NCBI GenBank assembly: GCA_002790835.1
Contig: PFVX01000060.1
Span: 1 to 50,371 of the forward strand
DNA: 50,371 bases
Direction: 5' to 3'
Origin: a bacterium CG_4_9_14_3_um_filter_65_15
GTDB taxonomy: Bacteria; Krumholzibacteriota; Krumholzibacteriia; LZORAL124-64-63
This document shows positions 5,910-43,080 of the stretch, in pieces. Under the pieces are notes generated by a model that saw nothing but the letters and a program-made list of their open reading frames with translations, searched no databases and was not told the DNA's origin. The stretch's first letter is position 1. Every line of letters begins with the position of its first letter. The position numbers and the translations under genes were made by a program.

Positions 5910-6263
5910 ATGGCTATAATCAACGAAAATTCGGACGAGGCCGTCCTTGAGGAAGTCGGTAAGCGGTTGGCACGATACCGGTTGAACCGCAATCTGACCC
6001 AGGCCGCCCTGGCCCGGGAGGCCGGAATTTCCCCGCGTACCCTCAACCGGATCGAGCACGGAGAGTCGGTCAACGGGTCCAACCTGATCCGGTTGTTGCG
6101 ATCCCTCGACCTGCTGGCCAACCTCGAGGCCCTGATTCCGGAACCTGCGCCCAGCCCGATCCAGCAGGTGAAGATGCAGGGGAAGATCCGCAAGCGCGCG
6201 TCGGGTGGTCGGGCGAATCCACCGGCCAAGGGCGAGCCGTGGTCGTGGGGGGATGAGGAATGA
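5910..6263 (+). CDS. hipB: HipB-like antitoxin, XRE-family helix-turn-helix protein
   Basis: 117 aa. The ATG at 5910 has AGAGG eight bases upstream; a GTG nine bases earlier is an alternative. Residues about 18-72 form a lambda-repressor-type HTH (KRLARYRLNRNLTQAALARE, then AGISPRTLNRIEHGESV). The C-terminal 45 residues are basic and Pro/Gly-rich and probably disordered, the part that in HipB-type antitoxins can contact the toxin or be degraded. It should neutralise the HipA kinase encoded next and repress its own promoter through the GCCA-N4-TGGC sites upstream. The stop overlaps the hipA start (ATGA), so the two are translationally coupled. Confidence 0.85.
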   Translation: MAIINENSDEAVLEEVGKRLARYRLNRNLTQAALAREAGISPRTLNRIEHGESVNGSNLIRLLRSLDLLANLEALIPEPAPSPIQQVKMQGKIRKRASGGRANPPAKGEPWSWGDEE

Positions 6264-8928: not shown

Positions 8929-9100
8929 GCGGACTTCCCCGGTTCGAGGTTGCGGAATTCAAGTTACCCCAAGGTAGGTCACCAGCGGGGGGTTCCGCAG
9001 GAAATATTTCCCGGACGGCGCCCTGCGATTCCGCCTCGCCAATGGACACCGGTGCGGACATAATGTCCCTGAAGTGTTCACCCGCGCGAAAGGTGTTCTC

Positions 9101-20169: not shown

Positions 20170-20212
20170 CCCCCTGAAACCGAATGAGGGCCCGGTTTTG
20201 GATTGTAGGAAC

Positions 20213-21940
20213 ATGACATCATTTTCAAATAAACGATTATTCTTATCCATTTTGGTGGTCATTTGTGGTTTTCTGGGGACAGGAATGCCGTCAGCGGTGC
20301 TTGCCCAGCTATCCCCGGGCGACCTCACCCACGCCCACGCGGAACTCGACGGTCTCCGCAAATGCAAGAAATGCCATGACTTCGGCAATCGCGAAGTTCG
20401 TCAGGGCTGTTTGGATTGCCACGGGGAGATCCAGGCCATGCGAACCGAAAAGAAGGGTCTACACAGCCAGGACGAGTTTGATGATTGCGCGAATTGTCAC
20501 GTCGAACACAACGGGGCCGATTACGATCTGATCGCATGGGACGGGGGCCAGGACTCGTTCGAACACCGCCGCGCCGGGTTCACTCTCGCCGGCAAACACG
20601 CGGAGCTGGCCTGCCGCAAGTGCCACACCGTCAAATACGCCCAGGAGCCCCTCAAGTGGCGATCCATGGGCAAGGATCTCAACCGCACCTTCCTCGGCCT
20701 GGACTCCGCGTGCAAATCATGCCACGAGGATCATCACCAGGGTCAGCTGGGGGACGATTGCCTGAAGTGCCACGACCAGCGCGACTGGAAGAAGCAGCCC
20801 CTGTTCGATCACGCCCGCGCGAAATTCCCCCTGACCGGTCTGCACGCCAAGGTCGATTGCGCCAAGTGCCACAAGCCCGAACCGGTGAAGGCCGGCGGAA
20901 GTCCCACCCCCCGCTACACGAACCTCGTCTTCGCCGCCTGCACCGACTGCCACAAGGATCCCCACGAGGGACGCTTGGGCGGCAAGTGCATCGATTGTCA
21001 CAACACCGGCGGATGGTTGAAGTTGGCGACGGACAAATTCGATCACGACCGCACCAAGTATCCCTTGCGCGGTCGCCACACCTCGGTGACCTGTGAGAAA
21101 TGCCACGGAAACACCAAGAGTGGAGATGGCCTGACCAAACCCGCGTACGCCGCCTGCAAGGATTGCCACCGGGACGAGCACGGCGGTCTGGCGCGCGAGC
21201 ATGCCGCCTGGCTGACCTGCGAGAATTGCCACGACCTGGAGGGCTTCCGTCCGTCGCGCTACCCCCTGCAGAAGCACCGCGAGAGCGCTTATTCCCTGGA
21301 AGGGTCGCATCTGGCCGTGGCCTGCGGTCAATGCCACCGCCGCCCCGGTCCGACCGGCGCGGCGAAGCTCGATCTGGCCCCGGCGCGTCAGGATTGCCGG
21401 GATTGCCACGACAATCCCCACGAAAAATCAGCCGCGTCCGGTGACGTGTTCGCCGGGCTGGCTTGCAGCAGTTGCCATGTGCCTGCCACCTGGCGTCAGG
21501 TGTCGGGTGAAGGCGGCTTCGACCACGGCAAAACCCGTTTCCCCCTGGACGGACGCCATCGCCCGGTGTCCTGCCGCGGCTGCCATGTGCCCGACGCCGA
21601 GCACAAGGGCAATCTGCTGTTCAACCAGGCTCCGCGCGACTGCAACGGCTGCCACAAGGATGTTCACGGCGCCCAGTTCGCCGACCGTCTGGTGGCCGAC
21701 TCCGAGCTGATCGACTGCGGCCATTGCCATGTGACGACGGACTGGCTGGCCGAAAAGTTCAACCACGAAACCGACGCCCGCTTTGCCCTCAAGGGCGGCC
21801 ACGAGCGCACCCCTTGCGCAGGATGCCACAAGCCCGAGACCGGCCCGGATGGGGTCGTCATGACACGCTACAAGCCCCTGCCCATGGAGTGCCGGGCCTG
21901 TCATGACGCCCAACCCGGGGAAGGGAGTACCGGTTCATGA
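20213..21940 (+). CDS. Exported 20-haem c-type cytochrome
   Basis: 575 aa. Start ATG at 20213 with TAGGA just upstream; signal peptide to about residue 31 (FLGTGMPSAVLAQ). I count twenty CxxCH haem sites, the first at CKKCH and the last at CRACH. Several units follow the pattern FDHxxTxFPLxGxH then CxxCH (for example FDHARAKFPLTGLH and FDHGKTRFPLDGRH), where the conserved His residues are likely distal ligands giving bis-His haems. The repeat is the same as in the next protein, so the two are related. Expected in the periplasm or across the outer membrane, relaying electrons from the membrane protein at 19315. The stop overlaps the next start by four bases. Confidence 0.92.
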   Translation: MTSFSNKRLFLSILVVICGFLGTGMPSAVLAQLSPGDLTHAHAELDGLRKCKKCHDFGNREVRQGCLDCHGEIQAMRTEKKGLHSQDEFDDCANCHVEHNGADYDLIAWDGGQDSFEHRRAGFTLAGKHAELACRKCHTVKYAQEPLKWRSMGKDLNRTFLGLDSACKSCHEDHHQGQLGDDCLKCHDQRDWKKQPLFDHARAKFPLTGLHAKVDCAKCHKPEPVKAGGSPTPRYTNLVFAACTDCHKDPHEGRLGGKCIDCHNTGGWLKLATDKFDHDRTKYPLRGRHTSVTCEKCHGNTKSGDGLTKPAYAACKDCHRDEHGGLAREHAAWLTCENCHDLEGFRPSRYPLQKHRESAYSLEGSHLAVACGQCHRRPGPTGAAKLDLAPARQDCRDCHDNPHEKSAASGDVFAGLACSSCHVPATWRQVSGEGGFDHGKTRFPLDGRHRPVSCRGCHVPDAEHKGNLLFNQAPRDCNGCHKDVHGAQFADRLVADSELIDCGHCHVTTDWLAEKFNHETDARFALKGGHERTPCAGCHKPETGPDGVVMTRYKPLPMECRACHDAQPGEGSTGS

Positions 21941-24900
21941 AGCTCCGCCCCGCAACCCTGATCGCCATGGCCGCCGTTACCCTGGCCGCCGCCACGCTGG
22001 CGGCCGGGACCGCCTCTGCGGCCGACACGCTCAACCCGCACGGCAACATCTCCCTCGATTGCAAGGTGTGCCACACCGAGAATACCTGGCGCATCACCGG
22101 ATCGCCCAAGGGCTTCGACCACTCCGACACGGGCTTCCTTCTCGAGGGCCTGCACAATCACGTCGAGTGCCGGGAATGCCACCGCAACAAGGTGTTCGCC
22201 TTCGTGGGCACCCAGTGCCTGGATTGCCACGCCGACTTCCACAAGGGCCGGCTGGGACCCGCCTGCCGGGATTGCCACACGCCGTCCGGCTGGGTCGACC
22301 GCGGCGAGATGAGCCGCAAGCACATGGAGACCGCCCTGCCCCTGGTGGGCGCCCACGCCCAGATCGATTGCGATGCCTGCCACACCGGAGCCGCGCGCGC
22401 CGACTATGTGGGCACTTCCGCCGACTGCTTTGGCTGCCATGAGGAACAGTACACCGGGACGACCAACCCGCCTCACGCCCAGTCGGGCATCGGGACCGAT
22501 TGCCGGACCTGCCACGGCGTGTTTTCGGCGACCTGGGGCGCGGGGGATTTTGTCCATCCCCAGAGCTTCCCTCTGACCGAGGGCCACTCGGGCCTGGACT
22601 GCACACGATGCCACGAAGTCGGCAGCGGGTTTGTGGGGCTGTCCACCGAATGCGCGACGTGTCACCAGTTCGACTACGACGGCACCACCGACCCCAACCA
22701 TCAGGCGGCCGGCTTCCCCACCGACTGCACCCAGTGTCACACCACGGTGAGCTGGGAGGGTGCGAAAATCGATCACGACCTGACGAACTTCCCCCTGACC
22801 GGCGCGCACGTGACCGTCGATTGCGCAGCCTGCCATGTGTCGACCTTCACGGGTACGGCCACCAATTGCGATGCCTGTCATCTGGACGACTACAACGGCA
22901 CCGATGATCCCGACCACGCGGCCGGCGGGTTCCCCCTGGATTGCAGCCGGTGCCACCAGACCGACAATTGGGATGGGGCGGTCTTCGACCACGACAGCAC
23001 CGATTTCCCGCTGACCGGGCGGCATGTGGGAGTGAACTGCGCCTCGTGTCACGAGTCCGGTTACGCCGGAACGGCCATGAACTGCGACGCGTGCCACCTG
23101 GACGACTACAACAGCGCCGAGGACCACCGTGCGCAGGGATTCCCCCTGGACTGCACCCGGTGCCACACAACAGCGGGGTGGGAAGGGGCGGTGGCGTTCG
23201 ACCACGGCACCACGGCTTTCCCCCTGACCGGAGCGCACAGCGGCCCCGGTTGCATCTCCTGCCATGAGGCGGGTTTTGTGGGCACGGCCGGCGATTGCTG
23301 GAGTTGCCACCAGGACAACTACGCCGGCGCCACGGATCCGGACCACCCCGGCGGGGGCTATTCCCAGGATTGTTCCCAGTGCCACAACGTCGACGGTTGG
23401 GGCGGAGCGACCATCGACCACGCCACGCAAACCTCGTTCCCCCTGACCGGAGCCCACGTCGGCGCCGCTTGCGCGTCCTGCCATACTTCCGACTATACGG
23501 GTACCGCCGCCAACTGCGATGCCTGCCACCTTGACGACTACAACGGCACCGGCGACCCGGACCACGTCGGCGGCGGGTTCCCTCTGGATTGTCAGCAGTG
23601 TCACGTGACCGACAGCTGGGACGGCGGTCAGATCGACCACAACCTGACGGCGTTCCCGCTGACGGGTTCCCACGTGACGGTCGATTGCGCCCAGTGCCAT
23701 GTTGCCGGTTACACGGGCACTTCCAGCGAATGCCAGAGCTGTCACCTCGACGATTACAACGGCACCGTGGATCCGGACCACGTGGGCAGCGGATTCCCCA
23801 CCGCTTGCCAGCAATGCCACAACACCGACAACTGGGATGGCGGTCAGATCGACCACAACCTGACGGCGTTCCCGCTGACGGGCGCCCACGTGGCGGTCGA
23901 CTGCGCCCAGTGCCACGTTTCCGGCTACACCGGCACCGCAAGCAATTGCGACGCTTGCCACCTGGACGACACCAACGGCACTTCCGATCCCGATCACGCA
24001 GCCGAGCAATTTCCCCTGGATTGTTCCGGTTGTCACCAAACCACGGCCTGGGAACCGTCCACGTTCGACCACGCCCAGACGGCGTTCCCGTTGTCGGGCG
24101 CCCACACCACGACTTCCTGTGTCGATTGTCACGACGCCGGCTACGTGAACACCCCGCGGGCCTGTCAAAGTTGCCATCTCGACGACTACAACGGGACCAC
24201 CGACCCCAACCACGCCGCTGAACAGTTCTCCCTCGATTGTTCGCGGTGCCACGATCCGGTGGCCTGGTATCCCGTGAACTTCGATCACAATCAGACATCG
24301 TTCGCATTGACCGGCGCCCACGGCGCGCTGGATTGCCTCCAGTGCCATGCCAGCGGCTATACCGGTACGGCCACCAATTGCGACGCCTGTCACCTGGACG
24401 AGTACAACGGAACCACCGATCCCAATCACGCGGCCGAGCAGTTCCCCCTGGATTGCTCCGGCTGTCATCAAACAACTGCGTGGGATCCGTCCACCTTCGA
24501 CCACGGTCAGACGGCGTTTCCGTTGACCGGCGCGCATGTCTCGACGTCCTGCGTCCAGTGCCATGATTCCGGCTACGTGGGCACCCCGACGGACTGCCAG
24601 AGCTGCCATCTGCCCGACTACAACAACACCACCGACCCGGACCACCAGGCGGAGCAGTTCCCCACCACCTGCACCAACTGTCACACCATCACGGCGTGGA
24701 CTCCCGCCGATTTCGACCACAACCTGACGTCGTTCCCTTTGACCGGCGCCCACGGCCCGCTGGATTGCACCCAGTGCCACGCCACGGGTTACGCGGGGAC
24801 CTCGTCCGAATGCCAGAGCTGCCACCTGGACGACTACAATGGAACCGTGGACCCGAATCACCAGGCGGAGCAATTTCCGCTTGTTTGCGCCAGTTGTCAC

Positions 24901-25587
24901 AGCACCACCGCCTGGACCCCGTCTTCCTTCGACCATGGGCAGACGGCGTTCCCGTTGACGGGCGCGCACACCACGACCTCGTGCCTCCAGTGTCACGATG
25001 CCGGCTATGTCGGCACGCCCACGAACTGCGACGCCTGCCACCTGACCGATTACAACGGGACCACCGACCCGGACCATCAGGCCCAGTCGTTCCCGCTGGA
25101 TTGTTCGGGCTGTCACGAGACCACCGGCTGGACCCCCGCGACCTTCGACCACACCCAGACGTCATTCCCGCTGACCGGGCGGCACATCACGACGGCCTGT
25201 ACCCAGTGCCATACTTCGGGTTATTCGGGCACGCCTTCGAACTGCGACGCGTGCCATTTGAACGACTACAACAACACCACCGACCCGAACCACGCCGCGG
25301 CGAATCTCCCGCTGGATTGCGCGCAGTGCCACACCACCTCGGCCTGGGAGCCGAGCACTTTCGACCACGACCGCGACTACTTCCCCATCTATTCGGGAAA
25401 ACACCAGGGCAGGTGGAACAGCTGCACGGATTGCCATGTGGTGTCGTCGGACTACGCGCAGTTCGAGTGCATCCTTTGTCACGAGCACAACAAGACCGAT
25501 ACCGACAGGGACCACAGCGAGGTGCGCAACTACGTCTACAACAGCGACGCCTGTTACGCTTGCCATCCGCAAGGGAGGAGCGATTGA
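21937..25587 (+). CDS. Giant 49-haem c-type cytochrome built of three-haem tandem repeats
   Basis: 1216 aa with a signal peptide (cut after GTASAAD, about residue 29). By hand count there are 49 CxxCH motifs, one per 25 residues, with no other domain. From about residue 230 the protein is a chain of about 13 units of 72 residues, each with three haems: CxxCHLDDYNGTTDPNH, then FPLDCxxCHxTxxW, then FDHxxTxFPLTGAH followed by CxxCHxxGYxGT. Conserved His in DPNH, FDH and GAH can serve as distal ligands. The N-terminal 200 residues are divergent units and the last 90 close the chain with CTDCH, CILCH and CYACH. Translationally coupled to genes on both sides. Best read as an extended haem wire through or beyond the outer membrane. 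Confidence 0.93.
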   Translation: MKLRPATLIAMAAVTLAAATLAAGTASAADTLNPHGNISLDCKVCHTENTWRITGSPKGFDHSDTGFLLEGLHNHVECRECHRNKVFAFVGTQCLDCHADFHKGRLGPACRDCHTPSGWVDRGEMSRKHMETALPLVGAHAQIDCDACHTGAARADYVGTSADCFGCHEEQYTGTTNPPHAQSGIGTDCRTCHGVFSATWGAGDFVHPQSFPLTEGHSGLDCTRCHEVGSGFVGLSTECATCHQFDYDGTTDPNHQAAGFPTDCTQCHTTVSWEGAKIDHDLTNFPLTGAHVTVDCAACHVSTFTGTATNCDACHLDDYNGTDDPDHAAGGFPLDCSRCHQTDNWDGAVFDHDSTDFPLTGRHVGVNCASCHESGYAGTAMNCDACHLDDYNSAEDHRAQGFPLDCTRCHTTAGWEGAVAFDHGTTAFPLTGAHSGPGCISCHEAGFVGTAGDCWSCHQDNYAGATDPDHPGGGYSQDCSQCHNVDGWGGATIDHATQTSFPLTGAHVGAACASCHTSDYTGTAANCDACHLDDYNGTGDPDHVGGGFPLDCQQCHVTDSWDGGQIDHNLTAFPLTGSHVTVDCAQCHVAGYTGTSSECQSCHLDDYNGTVDPDHVGSGFPTACQQCHNTDNWDGGQIDHNLTAFPLTGAHVAVDCAQCHVSGYTGTASNCDACHLDDTNGTSDPDHAAEQFPLDCSGCHQTTAWEPSTFDHAQTAFPLSGAHTTTSCVDCHDAGYVNTPRACQSCHLDDYNGTTDPNHAAEQFSLDCSRCHDPVAWYPVNFDHNQTSFALTGAHGALDCLQCHASGYTGTATNCDACHLDEYNGTTDPNHAAEQFPLDCSGCHQTTAWDPSTFDHGQTAFPLTGAHVSTSCVQCHDSGYVGTPTDCQSCHLPDYNNTTDPDHQAEQFPTTCTNCHTITAWTPADFDHNLTSFPLTGAHGPLDCTQCHATGYAGTSSECQSCHLDDYNGTVDPNHQAEQFPLVCASCHSTTAWTPSSFDHGQTAFPLTGAHTTTSCLQCHDAGYVGTPTNCDACHLTDYNGTTDPDHQAQSFPLDCSGCHETTGWTPATFDHTQTSFPLTGRHITTACTQCHTSGYSGTPSNCDACHLNDYNNTTDPNHAAANLPLDCAQCHTTSAWEPSTFDHDRDYFPIYSGKHQGRWNSCTDCHVVSSDYAQFECILCHEHNKTDTDRDHSEVRNYVYNSDACYACHPQGRSD
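22651..25380 (+). repeat. Tandem array of ~216-bp coding repeats inside the 49-haem gene
   Basis: About 13 head-to-tail units of roughly 216 bp, each encoding three haem sites. Some neighbours are nearly identical at DNA level, for example the segments beginning at about 23625 and 23841, which both encode GGQIDHNLTAFPLTG, whereas others differ at many codons. This indicates expansion by duplication at more than one time and a copy number that may vary between strains or be miscounted in short-read assembly. Confidence 0.8.
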
Positions 25588-31967: not shown

Positions 31968-32702
31968 ATGAAAACCTCACCCATCATTTTCCTCATTCTG
32001 GCCGCCATGATCTGGTCGTTTGCCGCCTGCAACGAGACGGTTACCATTCCGGTCGGCGATTCCGGTATCTCCAGCTCCACCGACAAGTCCGGCACGGACG
32101 ACCCCCAACTCCACGCGGACTTCGAGAAGGCGTTCAACGGTGTCACCGGCGGGGATTTCCAGCTCGCCACCCAGGTCATCAACCGGCAGATCGGCGGAAC
32201 GCTTGCGGTGACGCCCGAGGGCTGGCCCACCGGCTGGGAGGTGCGTCTGGTGGTTCCGCCGTACGCGTTCGACGCCACCTGGGGGGACAGCGTGGAGTTC
32301 GGCGTGTCCATCCCCGTCACCGGGGATTCCACCGGCGTGCCGTCCTACGAGTTCTTTCCCGACGGGATCCAGTTCAACGAACCGGTCACGGCGACCTTGT
32401 GCTGGCCGACGTGGGCGGGCGAACCGGTCGGCGAGGTCCTCACCCTGTTCCATCTCCAGGCCGTGACCCGCGACCTGGGAGAGCATTACGTCGTCACCGA
32501 CGTCCTTGCCGGAACACCGGCGGCGCTGAAGGGAACCGAGCCTCCGGCAGGCTGGTCCCTGACCGACCGTTGCACGGAGATCCTCTTCCCTTTGCCGCAT
32601 TTTTCCGATTGGAGTTTGAATGATGATGACAGCATCAGCCAGGGCGGCGGGAAGATCCTGCCTCAGGTTATCCAGGTTGGTGATTCCTGCTGGACGCCCT
32701 AG
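31968..32702 (+). CDS. Lipoprotein of unknown function
   Basis: 244 aa. ATG at 31968 after AGGAGTGATGCCCC. Signal sequence MKTSPIIFLILAAMIWSF with lipobox SFAAC, lipid-anchored Cys21. The mature part starts with a Ser/Thr/Asp-rich spacer, then a domain of about 130 residues with strands such as GWEVRLVVPPYAF and DSVEFGVSIPV, PDGIQFNEPVTATLCW and SLTDRCTEILFPLPHFSDWSL. The phrase FNEPVTATLCWP with a later LPHFSDW is reminiscent of ZU5-type domains in exported bacterial proteins, but I would not name it firmly. Two Cys near the end could pair. Convergent with the CHAT gene, 34 bases apart. Confidence 0.65.
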   Translation: MKTSPIIFLILAAMIWSFAACNETVTIPVGDSGISSSTDKSGTDDPQLHADFEKAFNGVTGGDFQLATQVINRQIGGTLAVTPEGWPTGWEVRLVVPPYAFDATWGDSVEFGVSIPVTGDSTGVPSYEFFPDGIQFNEPVTATLCWPTWAGEPVGEVLTLFHLQAVTRDLGEHYVVTDVLAGTPAALKGTEPPAGWSLTDRCTEILFPLPHFSDWSLNDDDSISQGGGKILPQVIQVGDSCWTP

Positions 32703-32736: not shown

Positions 32737-35700
32737 TCACCCATTGGCGTCGATGAGGCGGAAAAAGGCCCAGTAGGCCGGATGATTCCACTCGCTCCGG
32801 GCCGCCCGCAGATCCTGTTGGGCGGCCCGCAGCGCCTCGGCCCGGGACATTCCCTCCTGCCAGTGGGCGTAGAAGTGCTCCGCCAGATAGGCCGAGGACT
32901 CCTCCTCCACCCACAACGTGGAAGCGATGACCGATTTCGCCCCGGCTTGCAGGAAGGCACCGGCAAAGTCGGAAACGCCGCCGCCGCCAGGAGACAGCCG
33001 CCGGGCGGCGTTGCAGCAGGACAGGTAGACCAGTTCGGCGTCGAGGTGCAGACCGCTGACGGCGGGGATGGTGACCGGGGAATCCTTGCCCGGGGTGGCC
33101 AACCGCAGCGTCGACTGGCCGGGCAGGCCATGGGTGACTTCGGCGTGGGAGGAGATGTGGATGACGCCGAACTTCGTCAGATCCAGCCCGGTTATGGTTC
33201 GCCAATCCGCTTTGTCGCCGACCAGGAGACGGGAGCCCGTTCCCGACCAGTGCGCCGCGATGTCGGCGGCTTCCTGCTCGGCCTTGATCAGCCGGGGCAG
33301 GGACGGATTCTCCGGGTTTTGCCCCGCGGGGCCGTTGCAGCCGACGGCCAGCAGCGCCAGGGCGTCGGGAGAGGAGGGAGGCGTCTTCGCGGTCGGGCCG
33401 CCGTGGTATTCCCGGATGGCCCCGTGGTCCAGCGCCAGCCGAGCATCGCCGTTCGCGGCGGGCGCGGCCAGGGGCAGGGCGCCCCAAGGAAGGGCGCCCC
33501 AAGGGACATCGTGCAGCAGGCCGTCCGGCGCGACGGTCAAGGTGCCGCCCGTTCTCCAGGCGTCGCGGACGGGCCCCCACAACACTTGGGTCAATTCGGC
33601 GGCTGCGGCCCAGTCCATCGGGCGGTCCGGCATGACCATGTCCGCCAACATCGGACGCAGGAGATCCCGCAAGGCCCGCGTGCCCGGCAGGGGAAAGAGG
33701 GTGACGCCCCGGTCCGACACGAGCCATCCCCACGAGCGGTCGGCGCCGACCCGGTAAGCCACCCAGGGCGAGCCGGGATCGGGGTGAGGCATGCCCGAGG
33801 GAAAGATCTTCGCGAGGTCCAGGGTCGCCCGCGCGGGATCCTTGCCGGCGCACAGCTCAGGGTGATCGTGGGAGAGGGAGATGAGGTCGCTCTCGGCCAT
33901 GCGGTGGACGTTGTCGCTGAAGATCTTCAACTCGTCGAAGCCGGCCTGATGCGGGAGGTCGCCGGAGGCGTCCTGGACGGCGAGCAGGACCTTCTGGGCC
34001 TCCCCGAATCGCCCCAGCGCCGCGAGGGCCTCACCCTCGGCGAGTTCGAAGCGGAGCTTCAGGTCACGGGGCGAGTCGGGGTTCAGGTGAGCCAGGTTCT
34101 CCTGAAAAAGGGTCAGGGCTTCCTGGTTGCGGCCGGTTCTGGACAGGGCCATGCCGGTCAAAAGCTGGCTCATCAGGTGGGTCCGGTACCGGGATCCGAA
34201 TGCCGAGTTGGACCGGGTCGCCGCGAACAGATCCAGGGCCTCGTCGATGCGGTTCATCTGGAGATAGAGATGACCAAGCCGGAAGCGACTGCCGTCCAGG
34301 ATGTCCGGATTGTCGCCTTTTTCGGCGATCTCCAGACAGGTCCGGAACGACCTTTCGGCCGCGGCCTCGTCCTCCCGCAACAGGGCGAGACCCCCCTGAA
34401 GTGACGCCAAGCGCCAGGGTCGGCCATCTCCCCGGTTGTCGACCACCGCTTGGGCGGCCCGGTCCAGGGCGGAGGCCGCGCGCCGGAACTCGCCCTGCCG
34501 CATGAGAAGCTGGGCGGACACCATCTCGAAGTCCGCTTCATAGTTCTTGTTCGGGGTGTCGCTGATGATTGCGCTTTTCAGCTCCTCCAGCCGGTCAAGG
34601 CACGAGTAGGCCAGGCCGGCGTTACCCATTTCCAGGGCCCGGGGGATCATGGCCAGCAGGATGAGGGCTTCCCGGGGTTTGGCCGCGTCCCGTGAGCTGA
34701 TGCCCCAGGATTTGACCAGCAGGGATTCCGCCTTGGCGTAGTCACCGACCTGGCAGTAGTACTCCGCCATCTTCTCCTTCATGACCGCCTGGTTGTTCTT
34801 GTAGCGGTAACGTTTGACGATATCGTCGGCCCGCAGCAGGTAGACCAGGCTGGAATCCATCTGTCCCATCATCCGGAAGCCGGCACTGATGTTGGCGAGG
34901 GAGCGGGGATAGTTGAGATAGTCATCGGTGAGTGCGTTGACTGCCAGGGTTCGCCGGTTGATCTCGACGGAGCGCTGGTAGTCCCGGGCTTCGAGGGCGA
35001 GGTCGTCAGCCTGGTTGAGGGCGTGCCCCAGGGGCAGGTAGTACCGATGCTCTTCCGCATAGTCCATCAGGGATGGGAGGCGGTCGAGGATGGCGTCGGT
35101 TTCTCCCCTGCGTCCCATGATCTCGGTCAGGGTCACGAGAGAGGATACGCGCCGGTAGTCAACACCCGCGTGGTCGTCCAGCGCGACCGCGAGCGAGGCC
35201 GCATACAGGGCGTCGTCGAGATGGTCCACCGTGCCCAGGCGCCAGGCGATGATCTTCCACAGGCGGGCCTGGCAGCTGAATCCGCCGGCCTCGCGGGCCA
35301 GAGGCATGATGCCGAGCAGGCGGCGCACGGCGACGAAGGGGTGTCCCTCGATGTGCTCCTGAATCGCGAGCTGGATGTTCAACCAGACCAGATCACCGGG
35401 CTTCCAGTCGGCCGCGCCCTGTTCCGCCTTGCGGAGGTATTTCCCCGGCGGGTAGCCCCTGGGGTCGGTATCGGCGAGAAAAAAGCAGCCCAGGGCGGTC
35501 GTGGTGTCGTTGAGGACGGGAAAGGCGTGGATCTCGTTCACATCGTCGTCCCGGTGCATCAGGAAGGCCTGGTGGATGCCCAGATAGCACCAGAACAGAT
35601 TGCCGGGCTCGGCTCGCCAACGGTCGATGATCTCGGCGGCGGCGGCATCGCGCTCGTCGGGGAGGCGGAGCCGGCGCGGGAAGTCCTCGAAGAGCGCGAA

Positions 35701-35898
35701 ATCGCTGGTCAGTTCGTCCGGGCCCACCGGCTCCTGCAGGGAAGCCACCGCGGCTTCCACGTATGGCGCGAGCTCGGGCGAGAGCGGGACCCGGGACAGG
35801 TCGGCGATCCCCTCGTACCACGGCGGTTCCTGGTGGCCGCAACCGCAGCCGAATCCCACCAGGAGAACGAGGGAAAATATGCCGAGGGAAGTTCGCAA
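32737..35898 (-). CDS. CHAT-domain caspase-like peptidase with TPR array, lipoprotein
   Basis: 1053 aa from the TTG at 35898 (AGGA upstream, compact signal MRTSLGIFSLVLLVGFGCGCG with a lipobox-like Cys); a GTG at 35952 would add 18 residues. Residues about 150-680 are helical repeats of TPR type (for example RGDNPDILDGSRFRLGHLYL-style units, RTGRNQEALTLFQENLAHL, LGRFGEAQKVLLAVQD). The C-terminal 270 residues are a CHAT domain, with the His of VIHISSHAE (His918) and the Cys of VYLSCCNAA (Cys961/962), the dyad of clan CD proteases, so it should be active. If lipidated it faces the periplasm. It is divergent from the sigma/anti-sigma pair, 104 bases away. Confidence 0.85.
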   Translation of the reverse strand: MRTSLGIFSLVLLVGFGCGCGHQEPPWYEGIADLSRVPLSPELAPYVEAAVASLQEPVGPDELTSDFALFEDFPRRLRLPDERDAAAAEIIDRWRAEPGNLFWCYLGIHQAFLMHRDDDVNEIHAFPVLNDTTTALGCFFLADTDPRGYPPGKYLRKAEQGAADWKPGDLVWLNIQLAIQEHIEGHPFVAVRRLLGIMPLAREAGGFSCQARLWKIIAWRLGTVDHLDDALYAASLAVALDDHAGVDYRRVSSLVTLTEIMGRRGETDAILDRLPSLMDYAEEHRYYLPLGHALNQADDLALEARDYQRSVEINRRTLAVNALTDDYLNYPRSLANISAGFRMMGQMDSSLVYLLRADDIVKRYRYKNNQAVMKEKMAEYYCQVGDYAKAESLLVKSWGISSRDAAKPREALILLAMIPRALEMGNAGLAYSCLDRLEELKSAIISDTPNKNYEADFEMVSAQLLMRQGEFRRAASALDRAAQAVVDNRGDGRPWRLASLQGGLALLREDEAAAERSFRTCLEIAEKGDNPDILDGSRFRLGHLYLQMNRIDEALDLFAATRSNSAFGSRYRTHLMSQLLTGMALSRTGRNQEALTLFQENLAHLNPDSPRDLKLRFELAEGEALAALGRFGEAQKVLLAVQDASGDLPHQAGFDELKIFSDNVHRMAESDLISLSHDHPELCAGKDPARATLDLAKIFPSGMPHPDPGSPWVAYRVGADRSWGWLVSDRGVTLFPLPGTRALRDLLRPMLADMVMPDRPMDWAAAAELTQVLWGPVRDAWRTGGTLTVAPDGLLHDVPWGALPWGALPLAAPAANGDARLALDHGAIREYHGGPTAKTPPSSPDALALLAVGCNGPAGQNPENPSLPRLIKAEQEAADIAAHWSGTGSRLLVGDKADWRTITGLDLTKFGVIHISSHAEVTHGLPGQSTLRLATPGKDSPVTIPAVSGLHLDAELVYLSCCNAARRLSPGGGGVSDFAGAFLQAGAKSVIASTLWVEEESSAYLAEHFYAHWQEGMSRAEALRAAQQDLRAARSEWNHPAYWAFFRLIDANG

Positions 35899-36002
35899 GG
35901 ATGGGTTCCTGCTCGGGTTATCGGGGGTGGGTGGACAAGCCGATTCAACCACGATATCTTCATGACTGGCAAGAACCTTGAAACGGACTGGGTATCCAGA
36001 TC

Positions 36003-36608
36003 ATGAAATTTGCCGAACATGCCGACGAGAAATTTCCCCCGCGCGAGGTCGATACCGCCTTGCTGGTCCGGGATTTCCTGGAAGAAGAGCCGGGGGCCGA
36101 CGACCGCCTGTCGTCGTTCCTGACCCGCCTGTCCCGGCGGACAATCTGCAATTTCCTCGGTACCCGCGAGATGTTCACCGATGACCTGGCCCAGGAAGCA
36201 TCCCTAGCCGTGTTGGCCTATATCCGGCGCCGGGGGGAATTCCAGGGGGACCTTGATCGGTTCACCATCACGGTGGCCCGCAACACCTGCCGGAATTTCG
36301 TGAAGTGGCGCAAGGTCCACGAAGGTCGTCCCCTCGACGATTTCACACCTTTCCTGGCCAGCCATGCCGATGGCCCCCTGGACTGGCTCCTGGGCAAGGA
36401 GCTGTTCGACCTGGTGCAGAAGGCACTCGACCAGCTCGATGAGAAATGCCGCGACCTGTTGCGTGCCCTGTTCCAGGATGAAGTCAGCATCGAGGAGATT
36501 CGGCGCAAAGAAGGCGTGAAGGTGGTGCAGACGGTCTACTACAGGCGGGCCAAATGCCTGGAAAAGGTGGGCCGGTACCTGAGAAGGAGAATGGATGATT
36601 GGGATTGA
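36003..36608 (+). CDS. Sigma-70 family (ECF-like) RNA polymerase sigma factor
   Basis: 201 aa. Region 2 is visible at about 60-115 (MFTDDLAQEASLAVLAYI, then FTITVARNTCRNFVKWRK, where the aromatic/basic part melts the -10 element) and region 4 at about 140-195 (KALDQLDEKCRDLLRALFQ, then EVSIEEIRRKEGVKVVQTVYYR, the -35 binding HTH). There is no region 1 or 3, as in ECF/group IV factors. An N-terminal extension of about 35 residues is acidic. It is followed after 96 bases by its likely anti-sigma factor and is divergent from the CHAT lipoprotein, which it may also transcribe. Confidence 0.85.
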   Translation: MKFAEHADEKFPPREVDTALLVRDFLEEEPGADDRLSSFLTRLSRRTICNFLGTREMFTDDLAQEASLAVLAYIRRRGEFQGDLDRFTITVARNTCRNFVKWRKVHEGRPLDDFTPFLASHADGPLDWLLGKELFDLVQKALDQLDEKCRDLLRALFQDEVSIEEIRRKEGVKVVQTVYYRRAKCLEKVGRYLRRRMDDWD

Positions 36609-36704
36609 ACGGAAATTATCTTTTGAAAAACCCGGCACCGGGTTGTTCCGGGATGGAGCGGGAATACCTGCGGTGACGCCCCGATATCCTCTGGGAGGAT
36701 GGAG

Positions 36705-37478
36705 ATGACGGACCGGATTCAGGGTCCGCACTCGCAGTACGAGTGCGTGGAGCCCGAACTCGGAGAGTTGTTGTGGCGCCGCTTGGATCCCGGTCTGGAA
36801 CCGGATTTGCGGAGCAGGCTTCAGGACCATCTATCCATCTGTGATGCGTGTCGCCTTACCCTTCTGGTGGAGGGACGAATCGAAGGCGGCCTGCGGGCAG
36901 GGGAATGGGCCCTGGAAGGTGGGCGGTCGGTGAGGCCGGCCACCGGAAGCCGAACCCGGAAATCGACGGTTTTCGCGGGTGGACTGGCCCTGGCGGCATC
37001 GCTGGTGCTGATGTTGATCCTTCCTCCCGCCGCGCGAGCCCCGCTCGGCCTTGTGCGGGGCGACACAGCCGGGATGGGGTTCGTGCGGCCTGTTGAAAGC
37101 GAGGTCCTGGTCACTTCCAGACCGGATTTCCGCTGGACTCCCATTGCCGGAGCCACAGCCTACCGGATCGAGGTCTCCCAGGTTGACGGCCCGTGGTTCT
37201 GGTCGGGGCGTACGGGTCGGGCCGAGTTGCGGCTACCCGCGGAATCCGCCTTGCCTCCCCGGGGATCTTTCCGGGCCATGGTGCAAACAATCCCCGCCGA
37301 TCTTTCCGGTCTGGCCGATGTGACGGTGTCCTTCCGCAGGGGCGCTTTCGGCGCCTTCCTCTCCTACCGGGCCGCGGCCTCGCCGCTCTGGGTCAAGTTT
37401 CTGGCCTGTGGCGGCCTGGCGCTCTTGACCTGGTGGGGCCTGACGGGTTGGGATCGGCGCAGGCGCCTGGCGAATTAG
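36705..37478 (+). CDS. Zinc-finger-type anti-sigma factor with two membrane helices and periplasmic Ig-like loop
   Basis: 257 aa. The ATG at 36705 is chosen because GGGAGG stands six bases upstream; the ATG at 36699 abuts it. The N-terminal domain has H42-x3-C46-x2-C49 (DHLSICDACR), the zinc-binding anti-sigma (ZAS) motif. Helix 1 spans about 88-107, then a periplasmic segment of 120 residues that looks like an FN3/Ig fold (PDFRWTPIAGATAYRIEVSQ), and a second helix at 228-246 leaves a short basic cytoplasmic tail. It should hold the sigma factor encoded upstream, releasing it when the periplasmic loop is sensed or cut. A strong terminator follows. Confidence 0.8.
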   Translation: MTDRIQGPHSQYECVEPELGELLWRRLDPGLEPDLRSRLQDHLSICDACRLTLLVEGRIEGGLRAGEWALEGGRSVRPATGSRTRKSTVFAGGLALAASLVLMLILPPAARAPLGLVRGDTAGMGFVRPVESEVLVTSRPDFRWTPIAGATAYRIEVSQVDGPWFWSGRTGRAELRLPAESALPPRGSFRAMVQTIPADLSGLADVTVSFRRGAFGAFLSYRAAASPLWVKFLACGGLALLTWWGLTGWDRRRRLAN

Positions 37479-38978: not shown

Positions 38979-40889
38979 ATGCGCTGGATTCAGGGTTTCG
39001 GGTTGATGGTGGTCGTGGTTGTTTCCGGTGGTCAGGTGCCCGCCATGGCTGGGGATGTCGGCGCCACCGCCGGTCTCGATTCCACCCTTTCGTTCATGCC
39101 TTTCTCACGTCTGGATAGCGGGGACTTCAGCGCCGAACAGGCGTCCTTGCAGCAATTCTGGGGTTGCCCGCGCCGGATGGACCCGGTCTGGGGGTTCGGC
39201 GGGGTCGGATCGCCCGTTCTGGGCGCAAGCGGGTCGGTTCTCGACCCGGGTGAGGTTCCCACGGAGGCCGGCGCCGCCACCGGCATGTCCAGCTACCTGC
39301 GCAGCGGATACCAGACTTCCCGCAGCGACTCCTATATCGCCGGTGGGGTCAAGGGCGGTGACGCCCGCATGGATACCAGGGCGGATCTGGGGGCGCGGGA
39401 AGCGGGCAACTATTCCTCGCCGTCGGGAACGGTGGTGCCTGCGGGGCTGTCGACGCGCCGGGCCGGCCTGGCCGCGACCTGGCATCTTTCCCCCCAGGAC
39501 GACCTTTGGACGTCCTTCACCTACCTGCAGCGCCGGAACATCGATGCGCCGTCGCAACCCATGGACACCATCACCGCCGACAACCTCGGCGGCCGGAGCG
39601 GGCTGGTTTTCCGGCGGCCCGGATCGACCCTGGGCGCCATTTCCCTTACCGGAGGGTTCACGGCGGTGGACCAGCTCCTGAGCAACAGCCATAAACCCAC
39701 GGTGATGACCGCACCCGCGGAGATCAACGGTCGGATCCGCGCCTGGAACGCCCACGCCCGGACCCGCTTGGCGGGCACGGGGCCGGAGATCACCCTGGGG
39801 GCGGATTTCAGCCACCAGACCCAGGCCTTCGCTCGGCGCGGGGTGACCCTGGCCGACGGCGGCGCCCAGCTCGACAACCTGGATACCCGCGCGCTGCAGT
39901 ACGCCGGGGGAGCGTACGCCCGGGCGGACATTTCCCTTGCGCAGTCCTCGGGTCTGGCCCTGGAGGGCAGGGCCCAGGCCGTGACCAGCCGCTCGCGGAC
40001 GGCCGAGGCGCCGACGGTGGGCAACCAGCAGCTGTTGGACTACTGGATCCGCTATTTCGGCACCGAGGCCTCGGACTACGACCAGACCGAGTGGGTGGGC
40101 GCAGGTAGCGCAACGCTTGGCCACGGGTTTTCGCCGAGCGTCCGCAGCTACCTGAGGCTCGAGTACCAGGCCCGGCCCGCAGGCATCGGCCAGCGCTACT
40201 ATGGCTTCATTCCGACCCCCGGCGGCTATCGCCTGGGCAACCCCACCTTGACGACGCAGAAGGACCTGACCGTGGATTCGGGGTTGACGTGGACTTCGGA
40301 CGCGCTGTCGGTGACGGCGACGGTCTTCATGACCGATGCCCGGGACTACATCATTCCGCGCATCATCGACCGGATCGACGTGGACGGTGACGGGGTGCCC
40401 GATGCGATCAAGGGCTTCCTTCCGCGCGACGCCCAACTCTACGGCGGGTCTCTCGGCGCCAGTTGGCAACCGAGGGCGTGGATGCGGATGCCGTTGTGCG
40501 TGAACTACCTGCGAGGTCGGAACACCTCCGAGAGCAAGGATCTGCCGGAGATCCCCCCCTTGTCCGGCTATGCGGAGCTGCAATTCCTGCTGCATTCGCC
40601 GAGCCGGACCTGGTTCTGGACCCAGGTGGATTTCGCCGCCGACCAGAGCAACATCGACGCCCAGTTCGGCGAGAACAGCACGCCCGGCTACGCCATCTGG
40701 GGTGTCGGTCTGAGCGTCGAACCCGGAGCGGGCCTGAGCCTGTCCCTGCAAGTGGACAACGTCTTCAACCGTGAATACCACAGGCACCTGACCCGCGAAG
40801 CCATGTTGCCCGCCGACGGGCTCAGCCAGGGCCAGGAGATCCCCGCCCAGGGACGGAACGTGCGGCTGGCCGCGCAATGGAATTTCTGA
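38979..40889 (+). CDS. TonB-receptor-like beta-barrel with decayed plug domain
   Basis: 636 aa. GGGAGG seven bases before the ATG and a signal peptide to about residue 24 (QVPAMAG). The barrel is a close paralogue of the next gene: matching stretches include [69 protein letters not shown] and the final [19 protein letters not shown] ending AAQWNF. The plug is reduced to about 60 residues and lacks the usual conserved TonB box, leaving only GCPRRMDP as a trace. It may be a plugless pore, a non-TonB binding barrel or a gene in decay, although the frame is fully open. Confidence 0.75.
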
Positions 40890-40965
40890 GTGTGATCCGC
40901 AGGTCCGGGCGGTTATATTGCGACCTATCTGATTGCCGGGGGAGGGGATACCCTGGAGGTTGAGG

Positions 40966-43080
40966 ATGATGCTGCGTGCGAGGCCCCGCCTTGTCTGCTC
41001 CTTTGTGCTGGTTTTCGGTTTTCTGGCTCCTGATTCTCATCTTCAAGCGGCCCCGGTTTCGATGGACCCGTCCGATACCCTCACCACCCGCATCGGCGAC
41101 CTCGAAGTCTCTCCCCACGCCATGCCCTGGGGGGACCAGCCCGTTCCTTCGGCTCTGCTGCAGGCTCAGCACGGCGGCAACCTGGCCGAGGCGCTGGCCG
41201 GTTTGCCCGGGGTGACGGCCGTGCGCCGGTCCGCCGACGCCGCCGAGCCGGTGATCCGCGGCTTGGGGTGGGAGCGGGTGCAGACCCTGCTCGGGGCCGT
41301 GCCCCTGTACGGAGCCTGTCCCGGCCGCATGGATCCGCCGGCCACCTATTTCGGCCCCACGAGCTTCGACCGGGTTGATGTCTCCCGCGGCGGCGGCATG
41401 GGCCTCATGCCGGGAGGAACCGGCGGGGCGATCCATATCGATCCCCAATACGCCCGGCCGAACGGATCGCCGGACGGATGGACCCCGTTCCTCGAAGGCG
41501 GCTACGGCTCGGCGCGCGACGCCTATCACGTGGACGCCGGCGTGTTCGGAGGCCAGGGGGGCACCGATATCCGTGCCGTAACCGGGATGCGCGAAGCATG
41601 CGACTACACGTCACCCAAGGGGACGGTCGTGCCGGCGGACGCATCGTCCTACCATGCCGACCTCTCGATCAGCAACCAGGCCTCCGATCATTCCCGGCTG
41701 TGGGCGGCGGCTTCCTTCGTCCACGAAGAGGATGTCGATTTTCCCGCCCTGCCCATGGACAACATCGACACGGACTTCCTGGTTGGAAACGGGGGATACG
41801 ATTGGCTGCGTCCCGACGAGGGGTGGAGCGAGATCCGGACGAGCTACGGCTTCAGCAAGATCAACCACCTCATGGACAACAGCATGAAGCCCACCGCCAA
41901 GATGATGCCGGCCGAAACGAACGCCAAGACCCGCTCCTGGGGTGTCCACGTCCAGGCCGTCCATACGGGCGAACGGCGGGTGACCATCGGACTGGATGCC
42001 ACCGGTCTGACCCGCGATGCGGTGCGCACCCGCACCCTGACGGCCATGGACATGACCTATTACGACCACCTGTGGCCCAAGGGCCGGCAGAACAACCTCG
42101 GTGTGGCGGCGGAAGTTGTGCTCGACCCGCAGAGCGCCACGCGCTGGACGCTGACCGGGCGCTTCGATGCGGTGGACAGCCGGGTTCGGGCTGCCGACGA
42201 TCCCAGCCTGCAGGGCTTGACGATTCGCCAGCAGTGGGATCGCTACTTCGGTCTGGGGACCGAGGATCCCGACCGCACCGAATCCGTCGGCGCGGGTGGC
42301 CTGCGGGTGGATCGTGCCCTGTCCGGACACCTGAACGGTTTCGCGCGGGCCGGGTTCAGCACCCGCGCCGCCGGCATCACCGAACGCTACTACGCCTTCG
42401 CCCCGGCGCCGGGCGGCTACCAGCTGGGCAACCCGACTCTCCCGGCGGAGAAGAAACGTGAACTGGAGGCGGGGGTGACGTGGCAAGAGACGAAGATCTC
42501 GGTCCACGCAGGTGTCTTCGGTTCCTGGTTCAGCGACTACATCCTGCCCCAGATCATCGATCGCATCGATGTCAACGGGGACGACCTGCCTGACGCCATC
42601 AAGGGTTTCCTGCCCGTGGACGCCCGCCTGTACGGCGGCGAGCTGGGTCTGGAATGGCGCCCGAGGGGCTGGGTGCGGATTCCGGTCTCGGTTGCGGTGG
42701 TGCGGGGCGAGAACACCACCGACGGCCGCGACCTTCCGGAGATCCCCCCCGTGTCCGGTTCGGCCGAGTTGCGCCTGCGCGCCCACGCCGCCACCGGATC
42801 CTGGTTTGCGGCCCGCTGCGATTTCGCCGCCGACCAGAAGCGGATCGACCCCCTGTTCGGCGAAAACGCCACACCGGGGTATGCGGTGTGGAGCGTGGCG
42901 CTGGCCACGCGACCGGTGGCCGGCCTGGACGTGGATCTGCGTGTGGGAAACATCTTCGACTGCGAGTATCACGACCATCTGACCCGCGAGTCGGCGCTCA
43001 CCGCCGGCGACCTCCTCAAAGGGCAGGAAATCCCCGCCGTTGGTCGAAACATTCAGATTTCGGCCCGCATGGAGTTCTGA
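40966..43080 (+). CDS. TonB-dependent outer-membrane receptor, OprC/NosA-like (putative copper or metal uptake)
   Basis: 704 aa. The ATG at 40966 follows GGAGG by six bases; signal peptide to about residue 29. A full plug is present: ALLQAQHGGNLAEALAGLPG, VIRGLGWERVQTLLGAVPLY and GPTSFDRVDVSRGGGMGLMP. GACPGRMDPPATYF holds a C-x3-M pair where the copper receptors OprC/NosA have their Cu-binding Cys and Met, and DNSMKPTAKMMPAE in the barrel supplies more Met. The barrel ends with the aromatic terminus SARMEF. Copper or a related metal is the likely substrate, by likeness to that subfamily from memory, not from a search. It lies 77 bases behind its plug-poor paralogue, in the same orientation. 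Confidence 0.8.
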   Translation: MMLRARPRLVCSFVLVFGFLAPDSHLQAAPVSMDPSDTLTTRIGDLEVSPHAMPWGDQPVPSALLQAQHGGNLAEALAGLPGVTAVRRSADAAEPVIRGLGWERVQTLLGAVPLYGACPGRMDPPATYFGPTSFDRVDVSRGGGMGLMPGGTGGAIHIDPQYARPNGSPDGWTPFLEGGYGSARDAYHVDAGVFGGQGGTDIRAVTGMREACDYTSPKGTVVPADASSYHADLSISNQASDHSRLWAAASFVHEEDVDFPALPMDNIDTDFLVGNGGYDWLRPDEGWSEIRTSYGFSKINHLMDNSMKPTAKMMPAETNAKTRSWGVHVQAVHTGERRVTIGLDATGLTRDAVRTRTLTAMDMTYYDHLWPKGRQNNLGVAAEVVLDPQSATRWTLTGRFDAVDSRVRAADDPSLQGLTIRQQWDRYFGLGTEDPDRTESVGAGGLRVDRALSGHLNGFARAGFSTRAAGITERYYAFAPAPGGYQLGNPTLPAEKKRELEAGVTWQETKISVHAGVFGSWFSDYILPQIIDRIDVNGDDLPDAIKGFLPVDARLYGGELGLEWRPRGWVRIPVSVAVVRGENTTDGRDLPEIPPVSGSAELRLRAHAATGSWFAARCDFAADQKRIDPLFGENATPGYAVWSVALATRPVAGLDVDLRVGNIFDCEYHDHLTRESALTAGDLLKGQEIPAVGRNIQISARMEF

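Follow-up and report, generated by a model that had tools for sequence, protein, structure and literature searches.

A TPR-CHAT protease encoded with a sigma factor, a membrane anti-sigma factor and a ZU5-fold lipoprotein in Candidatus Krumholzibacteriota: a possible envelope-signalling module outside CRISPR

In the type III-E CRISPR system Craspase, Csx29 (a protease with tetratricopeptide repeats, TPRs, and a CHAT domain), Csx30 and a sigma factor of the extracytoplasmic function (ECF) class are encoded together, and proteolysis has been proposed to relieve inhibition of the sigma factor (excerpts of PMC10028731). In type III CRISPR, CalpL, CalpT and CalpS make up a tripartite system of protease, anti-sigma factor and ECF sigma factor (excerpts of PMC11417357), and in the envelope switches based on regulated intramembrane proteolysis (DegS/RseA/RseP-RpoE, RsiW, RsiV) a membrane anti-sigma factor is removed by stepwise proteolysis (excerpts of PMC10028731). 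Here we describe a locus that shares features with all of these. It lies in a stretch of 50,371 nucleotides (positions 1 to 50,371 of contig PFVX01000060.1, assembly GCA_002790835.1; hereafter the window) from bacterium CG_4_9_14_3_um_filter_65_15, a member of the Krumholzibacteriota, and holds genes for a TPR-CHAT protease (CHAT), an ECF-like sigma factor (SIG), a membrane anti-sigma factor (ANTI) and a lipoprotein with a predicted ZU5 fold (LIPO). Judged from their sequences, these four genes are mostly inherited together, and we propose that they form an envelope-signalling module in which CHAT would cut ANTI on the periplasmic side of the inner membrane.

As in Craspase, a TPR-CHAT protease, a sigma factor inhibitor and a sigma factor, here ECF-like, are encoded together in this locus. 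Unlike in Craspase, no cas gene or array was found beside it, CHAT has a predicted export signal, the inhibitor is a membrane anti-sigma factor of the zinc-binding (ZAS) type with an FN3 domain instead of Csx30, and there is an additional ZU5-fold lipoprotein. The trio of protease, anti-sigma factor and sigma factor (here ECF-like) is shared with CalpL/CalpT/CalpS, but CalpL differs from CHAT as a protease of the Lon type that responds to cA4. The envelope switches are resembled by ANTI itself, a predicted membrane anti-sigma factor with a first transmembrane helix (TM1), an FN3 domain and a second transmembrane helix (TM2), but the candidate first protease here is a TPR-CHAT lipoprotein; to our knowledge DegS is not a caspase-fold protease. 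A further likeness is to PIDD and the FIIND proteins CARD8 and NLRP1, with a caspase-fold protease in the same pathway and, in LIPO, a predicted ZU5 fold followed by an HFS motif like the HF/S sites of PIDD (excerpts of PMC3210808). LIPO differs from these proteins in being a 244-aa bacterial lipoprotein in which no UPA or death domain was detected, and its self-cleavage is only a candidate. No CHAT/sigma/anti-sigma system outside CRISPR appeared among the listed matches to open-licence papers, as far as their excerpts go.

The preliminary description of this DNA had compared the locus to Craspase as the same three roles without CRISPR. In scans of the window the lack of CRISPR held. PADLOC models gave no cas match for 13 window proteins (the cas search covered these 13 only, not the remaining proteins of the window or genome) and a direct-repeat search of the window found no CRISPR-like array. 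The comparison itself holds as an analogy of logic only. Membership of type III-E was rejected, as Cas7-11 and an array beside the TPR-CHAT gene were not found in the window scans. One might still see in the three shared roles (TPR-CHAT protease, sigma inhibitor and ECF sigma factor; excerpts of PMC10028731) the remnant of a Craspase locus. Ten window proteins gave no PADLOC match at 0.001 (BovA reached 0.042, for CHAT only), the direct-repeat search found no CRISPR-like array in the window, and both CHAT and the anti-sigma factor are predicted envelope proteins, all of which makes such an origin improbable in the extreme.

The three genes named in the preliminary description were all recovered as neighbours at their positions. 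CHAT is on the minus strand (32737..35952), and SIG (36003..36608, 201 aa) and ANTI (36699..37478, 259 aa) follow on the plus strand. The locus is larger than this three-gene account, with a fourth conserved gene, LIPO (31968..32702, plus strand), convergent with the 3' end of CHAT, and a promoter-like element.

Conservation of the set was analyzed in 80 genomes of Candidatus Krumholzibacteriota using profiles that were seeded from linked genes and searched blind to position (E ≤ 1e-60 for CHAT, ≤ 1e-12 for ANTI and ≤ 1e-5 for LIPO); in each genome, scoring stopped after the top 9, 30 and 35 candidates, so that absences are not absolute. The CHAT subfamily was found in 16/80 genomes and ANTI in 17/80, namely all 16 CHAT genomes and G062, the only genome in which this ANTI is found and this CHAT is not matched. 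LIPO was found in 14/80 genomes, corresponding to 13 of the 16 CHAT genomes and a weak match in G018. The core maps of the subfamily comprise 35 stretches, and the counts are of stretches, not always of separate genes (L034 and L067 are the two ends of probably one gene, and some contigs of G066 and G067 may be one locus in pieces). Of the 24 core stretches whose 5' flank is 500 bases or longer, 20 have SIG no farther than 1.5 kb from CHAT, and 22 of the 26 ANTI places share their stretch with a CHAT gene. LIPO is near CHAT in 17 of the 24 core stretches that extend 500 bases or more past the 3' end of CHAT.

In 16 of the 17 stretches with both genes, LIPO abuts the 3' end of CHAT convergently, while in L029 it is found between SIG and CHAT, on the 5' side. 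ANTI is upstream of LIPO in L026, L030, L035, L053 and L057, and the order in L030 is ANTI-LIPO-CHAT-SIG. This variable order points to a link between the parts rather than a frozen arrangement. Several cassettes may occur in one genome (two in G007, two in G011 and three in G029), with most of the set kept. The association extends to 46 divergent CHATs of the class, hand-picked (6 + 20 + 20 stretches) and with unrefined starts of their open reading frames (ORFs). A sigma factor gene is found within 2 kb of 33 of these and within 500 bases of 26, and 35/46 have a sigma or anti-sigma gene nearby.

The association is not a property of CHAT genes at large. Among 203 matching PLSDB records (with incomplete gene tables), six plasmid CHAT genes were examined, from Pseudomonadota, Acidobacteriota, Deinococcota and Cyanobacteriota. 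None of the six has an annotated sigma or anti-sigma gene within 5 kb, which rules out a link general to all CHAT genes. A survey of GTDB contigs gave six loci, four from Krumholzibacteriia/Krumholzibacteriota, one labeled 'bacterium' and one labeled 'Coriobacteriaceae bacterium' (a 4.6-kb contig), which are too few to speak of spread across phyla. Judged from its near relatives, the family belongs to Candidatus Krumholzibacteriota.

The three-gene observation is thereby confirmed as real and more than chance, and the adjacency is conserved beyond the source genome, although three genomes of the same genus lack the set (see below). Mirror-tree correlations over 15 loci (0.92 for CHAT-ANTI and 0.87 for CHAT-SIG) were not used as support, since species history gives the same result and the nearest neighbors of the three proteins often differ. 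A chance or merely inherited neighborhood with no functional link would fit the fact that all members found come from one phylum and that the correlated CHAT, SIG and ANTI distances are partly species history. The co-occurrence, the several gene orders and the paralogous cassettes within genomes speak against it, and we consider it very unlikely.

CHAT belongs to the CHAT peptidase family PF12770, scoring 137.3 bits against a curated cut-off of 24 (9.1e-40, residues 783–1066) with catalytic His and Cys present, and it has TPRs (Pfam TPR_12, 1.6e-11). The longest ORF is 1071 aa with a GTG start at 35952, and the start is likely at TTG 35898 (residue 19), which is preceded by AGCAGGA as a plausible ribosome site and gives 1053 aa. 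We number residues by the 1071-aa ORF, which is 18 higher than the preliminary description, whose numbers fit the TTG start; the His918 and Cys961/962 named there are H936 and C979/C980. The catalytic domain is encoded at 32755..33606 (minus strand), with the H936 codon at 33147-33145 and the Cys980 codon at 33015-33013. Among the 24 core rows having these positions, C980 and H932 are kept in all and H936 in 23, the exception being L036 with Thr; seven more core rows are gapped at the catalytic columns. All three residues are kept in 46/46 divergent CHATs. As C979 varies among relatives while C980 is kept, the nucleophile is C980, i.e., Cys962 of the preliminary description. CHAT thus appears to be an active protease from its intact catalytic residues, with one candidate nucleophile instead of two.

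A lipobox-like Cys after a hydrophobic stretch is present in 22 of the 23 core CHATs with a readable N-terminus (L036 is the exception), including the source genome's own, weak one. There, the N-terminal hydrophobic signal segment (35839..35898, minus strand) ends in GFGCGC. CHAT is thus predicted to be exported and lipoprotein-like, and the periplasmic location given in the preliminary description stands as a prediction from these N-termini. A phmmer search with the CHAT half against solved structures gave no match at E 10, which excludes nothing, and the CHAT profile matched mainly TPR proteins and a single CHAT-named entry, 8rot (1.4e-8), among the best 60 of 68 matches. The source genome has a second CHAT gene (L001), which is convergent with a Ser/Thr-kinase-like gene in a 4-kb stretch as read by eye from the translation. 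With 19 CHAT matches, the 5.8-Mb genome G030 of the same class points to an expansion in its lineage.

SIG matches TIGR02937 (sigma70-ECF) with 42.7 bits (cut-off 42.9), Sigma70_r2 with 22.7 bits (cut-off 24) and Sigma70_r4_2 with 12.8 bits (cut-off 25.7). Regions 2 and 4 are thus both matched, all under the curated cut-offs, by 0.2 bits for TIGR02937, and we refer to SIG as ECF-like. The preliminary description was right about a sigma factor gene beside the anti-sigma gene, and also about the ZAS type of the latter. ANTI scores 23.4 bits with zf-HC2, above the cut-off of 22.2, adjoins a sigma factor gene and has the HX3CX2C motif with an upstream Cys (C16, H44, C48 and C51; 36744..36854, plus strand). 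H44, C48 and C51 are invariant in 14/14 aligned rows and C16 nearly so.

The AlphaFold model of ANTI (pLDDT 84.1) contains the ZAS helices, TM1 (residues 85–107), a linker, an FN3 domain (126–216; 37074..37346, plus strand) and TM2 (230–258). Residues 126–216 match the fibronectin FN3 domain 1fna (Z 10.2, rmsd 2.0, 81 aligned). Where an Ig-like periplasmic loop had been described, a folded domain is indeed predicted, but its fold is FN3. In the predicted topology the FN3 domain faces the periplasm, the same side as CHAT, and the Arg-rich C-terminus at the end of TM2 (37386..37472, plus strand) is inside. Linker residues 118–123 have pLDDT below 50 and are unstructured in the model. They include Arg120 (codon CGG, 37056..37058, plus strand) in the sequence LVRGD, which we propose as the cleavage point.

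An Arg is found in the ANTI linker in 14/14 aligned rows, in the same column in 12 of them, and is invariant in 11/11 aligned anti-sigma factors linked to divergent CHATs (consensus VLRGG). In the first set, where the motif was noticed, [LIVM]RG occurred in 17/39 CHAT-linked anti-sigma factors vs 1/27 controls, and that one control (L104) turned out to adjoin a CHAT gene (L137). In a second set used as a retest, the motif occurred in 9/14 CHAT-linked vs 1/45 controls. After pooling and cleaning the numbers are 32/58 CHAT-linked vs 1/45 zf-HC2 controls (Fisher 1.4e-9, uncorrected for relatedness). Control L142 carries the motif and has no CHAT listed on its contig. An Arg exclusive to CHAT-linked anti-sigma factors was rejected as an idea, because it also occurs in homologs with no CHAT found nearby, and its tie to CHAT is tentative. 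Two such FN3-type anti-sigma factors with no CHAT found nearby (L201 and L202) are without the motif.

For this comparison L066 and L229 (cut by contig ends) and the duplicates L231, L215 and L217 were dropped, L104 was removed from the controls, and L062, L063, L064 and L086 were reassigned to the set lacking a CHAT close by. Separate counts were kept for L205 and L206, and L073 was omitted as a fusion. A CHAT was called nearby at a threshold of 1e-10, leaving weaker matches at contig ends uncounted (L213, 2e-5, and L217, on the contig of control L155, 7e-7). The controls were compared with the CHAT list by eye, and control stretches with no usable ORF (three in the first set and one in the second) are outside the 45. 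Several stretches in the no-CHAT group and the controls end at contig ends, e.g., L203, L204, L207, L210 and L216.

Some relatives of ANTI have unusual surroundings. In L205 (1748-11699) and L206 (740-11623), from two genomes, a gene for a very large surface-type protein lies between CHAT and the sigma/anti-sigma pair, and [LIVM]RG is kept. In G062 the sigma and anti-sigma factors are fused in a 444-aa ORF (L064:1636-2970), a single case, with no Arg in the linker before FN3. The neighbors of this ORF, named by eye, encode an integrase-like protein and a tricorn-like protease. The FN3 anti-sigma factors of L198 and L204 have an LRG linker and a sigma factor gene with no CHAT seen, and lie beside methionine-synthesis genes as read by eye; they are candidates for service in trans.

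A different kind of fusion is found in L073 of G027 (6028-9309), where a single ORF encodes a hydrophobic N-terminus, TPRs, a CHAT domain (E 9.2e-55, with a weak separase match of 1.4e-4), two hydrophobic segments and an FN3-like end. This end is matched by the ANTI model, and the linker is ILRGD. No separate sigma or anti-sigma gene was detected on this stretch. The fusion thus joins CHAT and the outer domain of the anti-sigma factor in one polypeptide, and the two are predicted to be on the same side of the membrane.

Together, the linker Arg and the L073 fusion make it plausible that CHAT and the anti-sigma factor meet in the periplasm. We propose that CHAT acts in the periplasm as the site-1 protease for the anti-sigma factor within a four-gene envelope-signalling module, a reading that we give an even chance, the cleavage itself being inferred. 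In this mechanism ANTI would hold the sigma factor at the inner membrane, with CHAT and the ZU5 lipoprotein tethered in the periplasm. An envelope signal might be sensed by the TPRs of CHAT, by the lipoprotein, or by both, upon which CHAT would cut ANTI shortly beyond the outer end of TM1, within the disordered linker and most probably on the C-terminal side of the conserved R120. The linker is a likelier target than the FN3 domain. An M50 site-2 protease and proteases in the cytosol would then cut the remaining stub and so free the sigma factor. Site-2 proteases accept short stubs, as for RseA/RseP, and since the Arg site is 8–24 residues outside TM1 (median 14), a cut there would leave a stub of this kind. 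Three M50 peptidase matches above cut-off are present in the genome and are only candidates for this role. Separase and metacaspases, caspase-fold relatives, cut after Arg; for CHAT, Arg specificity is a prediction by analogy.

Several observations weigh against this reading. The three genomes of the same genus that were searched have none of CHAT, ANTI or LIPO, and the distribution is patchy. The CHATs of L050, L051 and L052 (the last interrupted by a stop) have no sigma or anti-sigma gene nearby, and SIG-ANTI pairs (L062 and L063) are found elsewhere in these genomes, on separate contigs. L026 has ANTI and LIPO but no SIG. The compared proteins are related, so the counts are not independent. 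Regarding export, the lipobox of the source genome's CHAT (GFGC) is weak, although most relatives have clearer ones (IAGC, IAAC, ILSC, LAAC and similar), and just 13/26 divergent CHATs have a hydrophobic segment in their first 60 residues in a crude scan with unrefined ORF starts. As to the linker, exact [LIVM]RG is found in just 9/22 members of the source genome's own (core) subfamily and also in 6/19 ANTI homologs for which the search out to 5 kb showed no CHAT, and it is kept in the FN3-type anti-sigma factors of L198 and L199 (6 kb flanks) and L204 (4.9-kb contig), where no CHAT was seen. A looser pattern, in which a small or acidic residue comes after the Arg, occurs in 30/45 controls. 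Finally, the Csx29 substrate Csx30 has no essential residue, and loop size mattered instead (excerpts of PMC10028731).

The control region between CHAT and SIG bears on the chief rival explanation. A promoter-like element, GTGGACA-N17-TATCTTC (35930..35964, plus strand), reads toward SIG. Similar elements precede and read toward SIG in 12/19 core regions, with 0/19 toward CHAT, in counts made with a pattern drawn from the same regions. In the source genome the element is the sole exact match genome-wide, and together with eight one-mismatch sites it compares with one site for a reversed control. Most of the eight sites have no convincing downstream gene start or lie inside a predicted ORF, and we do not claim a regulon. 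With TGGACA-N17-TATCGT being near a housekeeping promoter, the element may be of housekeeping type, and we do not claim autoregulation. A site of this kind also precedes the sigma/anti-sigma fusion gene of G062 (L064).

According to this rival explanation CHAT and the lipoprotein would be outputs of the sigma factor, with CHAT as a stress-induced envelope protease, and another periplasmic protease would cut the anti-sigma factor. ECF regulons often take in neighboring genes, CHAT is transcribed divergently from the same ∼100-bp region as the sigma factor gene, and the linker Arg occurs in some anti-sigma factors with no CHAT found nearby, all of which would fit. Against this, the promoter-like element reads toward SIG only (though it may be housekeeping-type), no site scoring above 13 lies directly before LIPO, CHAT is co-directional with the sigma and anti-sigma genes in many divergent loci, and L073 fuses CHAT to an FN3 domain of the anti-sigma type. 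We regard the output explanation as a serious minority possibility.

LIPO has the lipobox FAAC and no Pfam match of any kind, and searching 12 members with Pfam including the ZU5 sequence model at 0.1 also gave no match. Its AlphaFold model has moderate confidence (pLDDT 77.8) and matches the ZU5 domain of ankyrin-B (Z 9.3, rmsd 3.6, 132 aligned). ZU5 domains of ankyrins and ZO1 fill the first 11 places among the fold matches, with UNC5b (Z 6.5) and the GAIN domains of adhesion GPCRs coming next, and Foldseek gives a probability of 1.00 against ankyrin ZU5. Although Z values of ∼8–9 are just moderately above the level reached by models with no relatives, the LIPO rows agree among themselves, and we consider the model to be a ZU5 fold relative rather than a detected sequence member. 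An HFSDW motif (residues 211–215, with S213 as the HFS serine) is located on the last long strand near the C-terminus, and HFS is kept in 15/18 relatives. PIDD self-cleaves after each ZU5 domain at HF/S (excerpts of PMC3210808), and for surface proteins of bacteria, too, auto-processing of ZU5 domains has been suggested (excerpts of PMC3482391). The HFS motif of LIPO may be PIDD-like by analogy, though it could also be structural.

LIPO might alternatively be a substrate or pseudo-substrate inhibitor of CHAT, with its processing signalling on to the anti-sigma factor. The convergent position at the CHAT 3' end in nearly all stretches with both genes (16/17), the position after ANTI in the five stretches named above, the conserved HFS and the self-cleavage of some ZU5/GAIN folds (excerpts of PMC3210808 and PMC3482391) would agree with such a role. 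LIPO was unrecognized, however, at seven core CHATs (L028, L032, L033, L050–L052 and L054; L032 has a small lipoprotein-like ORF in its place), and later LIPO models gave no match at any of the 46 divergent CHATs. The core relation is therefore the one between CHAT, sigma factor and anti-sigma factor, and we find the substrate explanation quite unlikely. In L040 of G007 an 857-aa lipoprotein-like ORF (7555-10128) follows a divergent CHAT; one earlier LIPO model matched it at 2e-10 and the later ones did not.

A more detailed version of the site-1 protease reading can be drawn from PIDD and the FIIND proteins. Here, a self-cleaving ZU5 lipoprotein would sense envelope damage, an Arg-specific tethered CHAT would then cut the linker Arg of ANTI, and the ECF sigma factor would be released. 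This chain as a whole is tentative and rather unlikely. If it applied, sigma factor, anti-sigma factor and CHAT would be a signalling class expanded across the phylum, and many genomes would hold several copies of it in parallel.

Elsewhere in the window, two multihaem cytochrome genes are found at 20198-25587, the second with an MtrC/MtrF-like outer-membrane cytochrome domain. Two tandem genes for TonB-dependent receptors lie at 38979-43080, of which the first matches the barrel only, with no plug domain seen.

The preliminary description had read the locus as a protease-gated transcription switch, and this is partly supported by the present analysis. Caspase-like proteases controlling sigma factors are known from CRISPR loci. 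If the site-1 protease reading is true, dozens of loci within one phylum would follow the same logic from the cell envelope and with no CRISPR, and CHAT would be a new kind of site-1 protease, giving a concrete job to the many CHAT proteins of these bacteria. The locus also pairs a predicted ZU5 domain with a caspase-fold enzyme in a bacterium, where the pairing can be tested; in animals, this combination is known among proteins of cell death and the inflammasome. Altogether, our results suggest that bacteria may use caspase-like proteases to turn genes on from the envelope without CRISPR.

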